A program made the position numbers and the translations under genes. Of a stretch of DNA of 64,000 nucleotides, positions 16,406 through 17,762 are shown piece by piece; the stretch's first letter is position 1; each line of letters opens with the position of its first letter. The notes beneath the pieces are model-generated. The model did no database searches and had not been told where the DNA came from. It saw only the letters and a list, made by a program, of their open reading frames with translations. The DNA is taken from positions 682,001 through 746,000 of the forward strand of contig JABUFD010000002.1 of the NCBI GenBank assembly GCA_013314735.1. The letters are read 5' to 3'. This stretch comes from Anaerolineae bacterium (GTDB lineage Bacteria; Chloroflexota; Anaerolineae; Anaerolineales; Anaerolineaceae).

Positions 16406-16454
16406 CGCAGCGATGCTGTTGCGGTATATTAACCTGCCATTAACAGTGAAACAT

Positions 16455-16483
16455 TTGACACCCGCTATAAATTCATATAGAAT
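16455..16483 (+). promoter_or_regulatory. Strong sigma-70-type promoter
   Basis: A perfect TTGACA at 16455-16460 and TAGAAT at 16478-16483 are separated by exactly 17 nt. Transcription would begin near 16490, giving a leader of about 240 nt before the exchanger ATG. Confidence 0.8.
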
Positions 16484-16489
16484 TAGTAC

Positions 16490-16700
16490 GATTGTGGGAT
16501 TGTTAATGGACAAGAGTCGCCCCCAATCAGGATAAAATGATGAAGGTTAACGCATTGCTTGATATTTATACAGAATATCAACAACCAATCGAAGACGACC
16601 CTGAGCACCCGTGTCAACGGGCATATCGCGTTTAACCTGCTCCTGGTCAAGTTTGGCTTTTCTTGCGTTGTCAACAAGGCTGCTTCCTGGAAGCAGCCTT
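16490..16700 (+). ncRNA. Candidate structured leader RNA / riboswitch upstream of a cation exchanger
   Basis: The helices seen are: GATTG-T-GGG (16490-16498) with CCC-C-CAATC (16520-16528); a closing helix GGTTAACGC (16545-16553) with GCGTTTAACC (16628-16637, one bulged T); a hairpin TTGATATT/AATATCAA (16559-16566 and 16574-16581); and a hairpin CCCGT/ACGGG (16608-16612 and 16617-16621). The closing helix and its two hairpins make a multi-branch junction. AAGGCTGCTTCC/GGAAGCAGCCTT (16676-16687 and 16689-16700) follows, terminator-like with a weak T-tract. I do not recognise a known riboswitch class. Control of the downstream exchanger by an ion or second messenger is inference; a stand-alone small RNA is the alternative. 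Confidence 0.5.
16676..16700 (+). terminator. 12-bp hairpin, possible attenuator
   Basis: AAGGCTGCTTCC and GGAAGCAGCCTT are perfect complements around one T. GATTTATTGTG follows, so the T-tract is interrupted. It lies 27 nt before the exchanger ATG. Confidence 0.55.
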
Positions 16701-16727
16701 GATTTATTGTGTCTGGAGAGAAAAATT

Positions 16728-17762
16728 ATGTTGGATACATTGTTGCAAAATACCTGGTTCCTCGTTATCGGCGGGATCCTATCCATCGCGCTGCTGGTGT
16801 ACAGTGCTGATGTCGCGGTGGGAAAACTGACCGGCCTGGCGGGATTTTTCCGCCTGTCCACCACCTTTGTGGGGGTGACAGTGGTTTCGTTGGCGACCAG
16901 TATCCCCGAAATCGCCTCGCATTTTACTGCCTCAGCCGGCATCCTCAGCGGGGTGCTCGATTACGAGGTCAGTTCGGCGGTGGTGCTGGGCGCCAATATT
17001 GGCTCCGATGTGATCCAGCAGACCCTGATCATGGCGATCGTGATCTTCATCGCCGGGAAGCTGACCTTCAAGCGCTACTTCCTGTGGAAGACGATGATCC
17101 CGATGATTGTCACCACCCTGATGTGCATCATCCTCGGTGTGGATGGCATCTATTCCCGCATCGACGGCGCGATCCTGTTCGGCACCTTCCTGGTGTATAC
17201 GCTCTTCCTCTATTTTGACGAGCGCAAACATTACAAAGAGGAAGACCACGGCTTCACCCCCGAAGGCGAAACCCCGCCCGGGGTGCCGAAAACCGCCAAA
17301 GAAGCCTGGATTTACGCCCTGATCGCCGTGGTGGCAATGTGCTTTACCATCATCAGTGCGATGATGACGCTCCAAATCACCGAGGTGGTGGTGGCGAAAA
17401 CTGGTGTCGGCGGATCACTGATCGGTGTGGTGACGCTTGGCATTGCTTCGGCTCTGCCGGAATTCATCACTGCTGTGTCCGGTATCCGTAAGGGTGATAC
17501 CGGTATCCCGCTGGGAACCCTGGTGGGCAGCAACATCACCAACCCGCTGGTCGCCATCGGCGGCGGCGCGTTGATCTCCACCTACTGGGTGCCCGGCCCG
17601 TTGGTCAAATGGGACCTGCCGTGGGAAACGATCACCGGTGCGATCCTGTGGGCGGTGCTGTGGTTCAGCAAGGGAAAAGCCGGCAAGCCGATTGCCATTT
17701 ACCTGACTATTCTGTACTTTATCTACGTCACCACCCGCGCCGTATTCTTCGGGGTGGACTGA
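16728..17762 (+). CDS. Sodium/calcium exchanger family (CaCA) membrane protein
   Basis: A 344-aa cation antiporter with two inverted halves. The alpha-1 repeat is VVSLATSIPEIASHFTAS with the ion-binding Glu, followed by GANIGSDVIQQTL. The alpha-2 repeat is LGIASALPEFITAVSG followed by TLVGSNITNPLVAIGG. About ten helices flank a cytoplasmic acidic loop at 165-195 (DERKHYKEEDHGFTPEGETPP). GGAGAG precedes the ATG at 16728. The family exchanges calcium or other cations for sodium or protons. A strong promoter and a long structured leader indicate post-initiation control. A clear terminator follows. Confidence 0.9.
   Translation: MLDTLLQNTWFLVIGGILSIALLVYSADVAVGKLTGLAGFFRLSTTFVGVTVVSLATSIPEIASHFTASAGILSGVLDYEVSSAVVLGANIGSDVIQQTLIMAIVIFIAGKLTFKRYFLWKTMIPMIVTTLMCIILGVDGIYSRIDGAILFGTFLVYTLFLYFDERKHYKEEDHGFTPEGETPPGVPKTAKEAWIYALIAVVAMCFTIISAMMTLQITEVVVAKTGVGGSLIGVVTLGIASALPEFITAVSGIRKGDTGIPLGTLVGSNITNPLVAIGGGALISTYWVPGPLVKWDLPWETITGAILWAVLWFSKGKAGKPIAIYLTILYFIYVTTRAVFFGVD

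Follow-up and report, generated by a model that had tools for sequence, protein, structure and literature searches.

What controls the CaCA cation exchanger at 16728 to 17762 on the forward strand of this 64,000-nucleotide stretch of DNA (the window), which comes from a genome of the Anaerolineae type of Chloroflexota? The gene encodes 344 residues (PF01699, E 8e-28). It follows a sigma-70-type promoter, TTGACA-17-TAGAAT, at 16455 to 16483 of the same strand, which agrees with the consensus at 11 of 12 positions, and a leader of about 240 nt that ends in a 12-bp hairpin with the loop CTG (16675 to 16701). The earlier note had described the promoter exactly, and its leader length and terminator-like hairpin are confirmed as well. 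It went on to read the leader as a multi-helix RNA and to propose a ligand-binding riboswitch of an unrecognised class that senses a metal or a second messenger. The main feature escaped it, namely an open reading frame (ORF) at 16537 to 16635, whose codons contain the arms of the supposed closing helix. Judging from sequence, the region is most likely a cis-regulatory attenuator ahead of the exchanger, a real element misread as a riboswitch. We assign a probability of roughly 0.7 to transcription attenuation governed by translation of a leader peptide, and the ease with which that peptide, with its Asp-Asp-Pro-Glu (DDPE) core, is translated probably decides whether the exchanger is made.

Folding of the leader and its overlooked reading frame

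The riboswitch reading starts from genuine observations. Metal riboswitches such as the yybP-ykoY, M-box, nhaA and DUF1646 motifs also precede ion transporters and carry a terminator, and the leader folds somewhat better than chance: as a whole it is modestly more stable than shuffled sequences (z -2.04, with 7 of 200 shuffles equally stable), and the segment 16528 to 16640 somewhat more so (z -2.56; 4 of 200). In the latter fold the closing helix forms, with arms GGTTAACGC (16545 to 16553) and GCGTTTAACC (16628 to 16637), together with the two hairpins it encloses. The outer helix at 16490 to 16528, also part of the original description, can be sketched by eye, yet neither the minimum free energy nor the centroid structure of the whole leader contains it. 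Moreover, the closing helix (16545 to 16637 overall) overlaps both ends of the ORF and pairs codons 3 to 6 with the stop codon, so that translation would melt it. Covariance models of Rfam 15 gave 0 matches in the whole window at gathering thresholds, and at relaxed thresholds nothing believable in the leader, where the best sub-threshold hits were a microRNA model and a scaRNA model. Homologous leaders were also collected and aligned; the helices of the window are absent from its nearest relative, of the same genus (L055), from g11 and from other lineages, and no conserved RNA structure was found across the leaders.

What is conserved is a peptide. The ORF is preceded by a Shine-Dalgarno sequence, AGGA, at 16529 to 16532 (+) and encodes 32 residues, MMKVNALLDIYTEYQQPIEDDPEHPCQRAYRV, with an alternative start at the ATG of 16540; 17 further complete leaders carry homologous short ORFs that share its core. 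The core is formed by the codons GAC GAC CCT GAG (D20 D21 P22 E23) at 16594 to 16605, our proposed site of ribosome pausing or drop-off. Among 17 leaders, found through the homology of their exchangers, D-D-P is kept in 17 and E in 16. The Asp codons vary (GAC in 7 and GAT in 10 at the first position, GAC in 12 and GAT in 5 at the second), and differences between close leader pairs fall mostly at third codon positions (0, 2 and 10 by position for L091 and L092). These 17 counts are not independent observations, since most of the leaders are related by descent; we count some nine to ten lineages. A block of codons with synonymous Asp changes argues for protein-coding conservation and against a riboswitch, and we infer that the ORF is translated. 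In several relatives, furthermore, only a few bases separate the likely start of the transcript from that of the ORF, which leaves no space for an upstream aptamer. With a terminator ahead of an ion transporter gene and a modest excess of folding on one side, and the lack of an Rfam match, the coding nature of the conserved block and the absence of the helices from relatives on the other, a ligand-binding riboswitch in which the ORF is incidental seems to us highly improbable. A regulatory leader with a terminator, retained in relatives, is thus what survives of the earlier proposal; a link to metals is plausible, while a metal- or second-messenger-sensing riboswitch class finds no support.

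The proline of the core is constrained beyond its amino acid. Its codon is CCT in all 17 leaders compared (16600 to 16602 in the window, plus 16 relatives), against 35 of 188 proline codons (19%) in the exchanger genes, and the proline three codons upstream uses all four codons among the leaders. This invariance reflects either codon-specific decoding or a constraint on the RNA. It also invites the view that the leader is an amino-acid attenuator, reading the charging of tRNA-Pro or tRNA-Asp, or else the m1G37 status of tRNA-Pro at the invariant CCT. A precedent exists in mgtL, whose conserved CC[C/U] proline codons are m1G37-dependent and are linked to Mg2+ through TrmD, an enzyme that needs this ion (PMC6335274). 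However, each leader holds one to a few proline codons, not the typical run, the controlled gene is a cation exchanger and not an amino-acid gene, and the acidic residues are conserved as strongly as the proline, all of which makes this an unlikely explanation, though the strongest of the alternatives. The sequence CCT-GA also creates a TGA in the -1 frame; by inspection only, no consistent overlapping ORF was seen in that frame.

A conserved peptide core beside one and the same gene could, alternatively, mark a small protein with a function in trans, for example on the exchanger. Nevertheless, the peptides range from 21 to 41 residues and are variable everywhere outside the core (L071 and L073 differ at 12 of 37 residues), and the terminator always lies between ORF and exchanger; we accord this possibility very little weight. 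The core typically sits at about residues 12 to 24, that is, within the first 30 or so.

Terminator, stop codon and the proposed mechanism

The hairpin at 16675 to 16701 (+) is an intrinsic terminator, with an extended form of -20.5 kcal/mol, and is followed by ATTTATTGTG. A terminator stands at the equivalent place in every complete relative, mostly with a strength of -15 to -28 kcal/mol, and nearly all DDPE leaders have an equivalent promoter in the same position. A candidate antiterminator strand spans the stop codon of the ORF (16613 to 16646 on the forward strand, comprising 16613-16617, 16619-16620, 16637-16643 and 16645-16646) and is complementary to 16686 to 16703; the duplex, of -13.7 kcal/mol, is moderate by itself and only moderately specific.

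Prompted by the match CAGAAC:GTTCTG seen in one genus, we asked whether the stop-codon region of each leader complements the loop and 3' arm of its own terminator better than those of other leaders. Across nine lineages this was the case for the region from stop-24 to stop+21 (p 0.0015) and for the wider one from stop-33 to stop+21 (p 0.0001). With other representatives chosen, the values were 0.064 for the narrower and 0.0009 for the wider region, and omission of the genus of the first sighting gave 0.0065 and 0.0014. As about a dozen combinations of region and target were tried, only the strongest of these values withstand correction. The ORF start, the DDPE block, and the 5' arm as target gave no signal in the same test, and some relatives (L070, L069 and L072) have little complementarity between stop region and terminator. 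When upstream sequence was allowed to pair with the terminator 5' arm in equilibrium folding, the outcome was no better than for shuffles. A pairing between the DDPE codons and the 5' arm stood out in one genus (GATGACCCTGA:TCAGGGTC) but was set aside, as it reached p 0.075 by lineage and was absent from the own-versus-other test. The layout of stop region and terminator is that of a candidate antiterminator.

We propose the following sequence of events. Transcription would start near 16490 and a ribosome would translate the short ORF. If it passed the DDPE codons and reached the stop codon, it would cover the stop region, the terminator would fold and transcription would end before the exchanger. 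If instead it paused at the acidic-proline block or dropped off there, the stop region would be left free; it could then pair with the loop and 3' arm of the terminator as this emerged, and transcription would continue into the exchanger gene. The geometry would allow such a distinction, in that a ribosome at the stop codon would hide the antiterminator strand and one halted 20 to 60 nt earlier, at DDPE, would not. The complementarity between stop region and terminator predicts this polarity, in which interrupted translation switches the exchanger on. Leader translation might instead act on translation or on access for Rho, or with the opposite sign, complete translation of the leader turning the exchanger on. 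The tail of the window's terminator is indeed imperfect (ATTTATTGTG), and YoaL/MgpA of Salmonella has been discussed as a high-Mg2+ case (PMC12421838); but the strong terminators of every complete relative and the predicted polarity speak against such arrangements, which we regard as a distant prospect, marginally ahead of a riboswitch or a protein acting in trans.

The proposed attenuator shares a leader ORF, an intrinsic terminator and a competing candidate antiterminator with attenuators of the trp and his type. It differs from them in its control block, D-D-P-E instead of a run of codons for the amino acid of the gene concerned, and in the place of the candidate antiterminator strand, here at the stop codon. 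A closer parallel is provided by MgtL. In E. coli mgtL reads ATG GAA CCT GAT CCC and is annotated before mgtA; at low Mg2+ ribosomes drop off at its EPDP sequence and mgtA is turned on, an effect that EttA counteracts (PMC11282234). Similarly, acidic residues of MgtQ act for mgtB (PMC8092293), and Asp-Pro repeats stall ribosomes of B. subtilis in the absence of EF-P (PMC11381351). Published work shows pausing or drop-off of ribosomes at early acidic-proline stretches in E. coli and Salmonella, and the location of DDPE within the first 30 or so residues fits the position which that effect requires. By analogy with the acidic and Asp-Pro stretches of E. coli and B. subtilis, DDPE would slow or destabilise Chloroflexota ribosomes as well. 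The cue may then be low Mg2+ or some other ribosome-weakening imbalance of divalent cations, a suggestion we make tentatively and rate at somewhat under even odds.

The MgtL leader and that of the window both combine a short ORF, whose early codons include those for acidic residues and proline, with a downstream cation-transporter gene and a two-component-type box ahead of the promoter. In contrast, they belong to different phyla and, apart from the motif class, share no homologous sequence; the terminator is intrinsic in the window and Rho-dependent in E. coli mgtL; the gene under control encodes a CaCA exchanger and not a P-type Mg2+ importer; and the box is of the Pho type instead of the Salmonella PhoP box.

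Distribution of the DDPE leader and a second leader type

The exchanger is present in 33 of 147 genomes of the window's family and in other families of the class; relatives with names include a Chloroflexi MAG and Pelolinea sp. A search of 400 genomes across the phylum brought up no close exchanger beyond the class. A DNA search with the leader in 100 related genomes gave no real match beyond its own genome, indicating conservation at the peptide level only. Upstream of exchanger homologs, 17 leaders with a D-D-P-[ED] core could be read from the DNA, with peptides such as MDKFQEFQAPIEDDPEGCLGDH, MRRPFEPQYPTEDDPEGASDMFTMPQKARVDIGCIMP, MDTYYKTHSAIKDDPEHVLGSVYLWRSRCTVT and MKKNWLFDPDYSVKDDPEGTGFSRARELCRLAI. 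The complete order of promoter, short ORF, intrinsic terminator and exchanger occurs at 18 loci, window included, in three families (f1, f64 and f67) of one class; pattern searches added L106, in the third family, and L127. The latter and L124 are tandem exchanger copies on one contig (G595, C61); each copy has a separate DDPE leader and terminator. Two further loci are partial: L014 has the core without a clear start codon or terminator, and the DDPE leader of L116 is interrupted by a contig end.

The association with the exchanger also emerges when the search starts from the peptide. In 400 genomes of the order the degenerate pattern P-x-[EQ]-D-D-P-E had 27 matches, against 6 for a reversed control. 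Nine of the 27 are leader ORFs flanked by a promoter and a terminator, and every one of these precedes the exchanger; the others lie within long genes or in chance ORFs. For the order to which f64 belongs, the matches that are true leaders likewise all precede the exchanger, except one at a contig end.

The exchanger tree groups 16 of the 17 DDPE leaders in one clade (support 100/100), one member of which, L068, has no leader visible in its 199 nt. The exception, L023, is placed elsewhere, beside leaderless homologs. L023 and L057, whose exchangers are distant, have the ORF end CAA-TAA in common, as well as terminators that are nearly the same (GAGAGCCG...TTATTGCGGCTCTC), a similarity suggestive of transfer of just the leader between them. 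The same-genus relative (L055/L006) keeps promoter, short ORF and terminator, and DDPE is absent (MFEKMHEFQHPGCD...; MFEKMHEFQHPGCDIAAVAACAVLLP).

In another family (f50) the exchanger is preceded by short ORFs that end G-[FY]-G-[EDH]-Q-[GS]-P-P-stop (L080, L087 and L088); L089 is of the G-[FY]-G-x-Q-[GS]-P-P-stop type plus one Ser, and L094 ends H-L-P-P-stop. These leaders also have terminators, and their exchangers form one supported clade. A near copy of a leader of this type lies at a contig end (L133). The second type looks like another nascent-peptide sensor on the same exchanger gene. Its Pro-Pro-stop ending recalls the arrest peptides of the RAPP/RGPP and TnaC types, although the f50 motif, G-[FY]-G-x-Q-[GS]-P-P-stop, precedes a cation exchanger and not Sec/YidC or tryptophanase genes.

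Probable phosphate control, the exchanger and the meaning of the leaders

Just 5' of the -35 hexamer, at 16429 to 16445 (+), lies a Pho-type box, the 11-bp direct repeat TTAACC-N5-TTAACA. In this genome pstS and pstC, too, have arrays of this repeat in front of them (L101; G000:C9:16482 and 17564), the genes being named from translated ORFs beside phoU. Within the family, 22 of 29 exchanger homologs have an 11-bp TTA[AG] repeat upstream, versus 2.5 expected, and in other families 0 of 24 do; counted genome-wide, the pattern shows no enrichment (24 against 46 in the control). The exchanger probably belongs to the phosphate-starvation regulon of the window's family, in which case promoter box and leader peptide together would resemble the two-level control of mgtA.

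The exchanger itself falls below the cutoff of TIGR00367 and is a distant homolog of NCX_Mj (E 3e-08). Alignments with NCX_Mj and the family, inspected by eye, place an Asn at the second acidic ion-binding position (GSNITNP) and GSDVxQQT in the first repeat, so its ion specificity may differ from that of Na+/Ca2+ exchangers.

In the open-licence literature we found neither a prior report of the DDPE leader nor one of an MgtL-like peptide sensor in Chloroflexota. More broadly, we consider the odds about even that in Anaerolineae two or more unrelated sensors of the nascent-peptide kind (DDPE and G-[FY]-G-x-Q-x-P-P-stop) stand before one clade of divalent-cation exchangers, with ribosome stability or stalling reporting cation status. 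The 18 leaders offer a natural set for testing the residues and codons at which ribosomes fail, and the two motifs before one type of gene make drop-off and stop-codon arrest directly comparable. If the proposal is true, it would help to predict which ion this exchanger clade handles. Cation sensing through ribosome destabilisation at acidic-proline codons would then not be just enterobacterial, but would have arisen in, or spread to, a distant phylum, with a different peptide, terminator and transporter.
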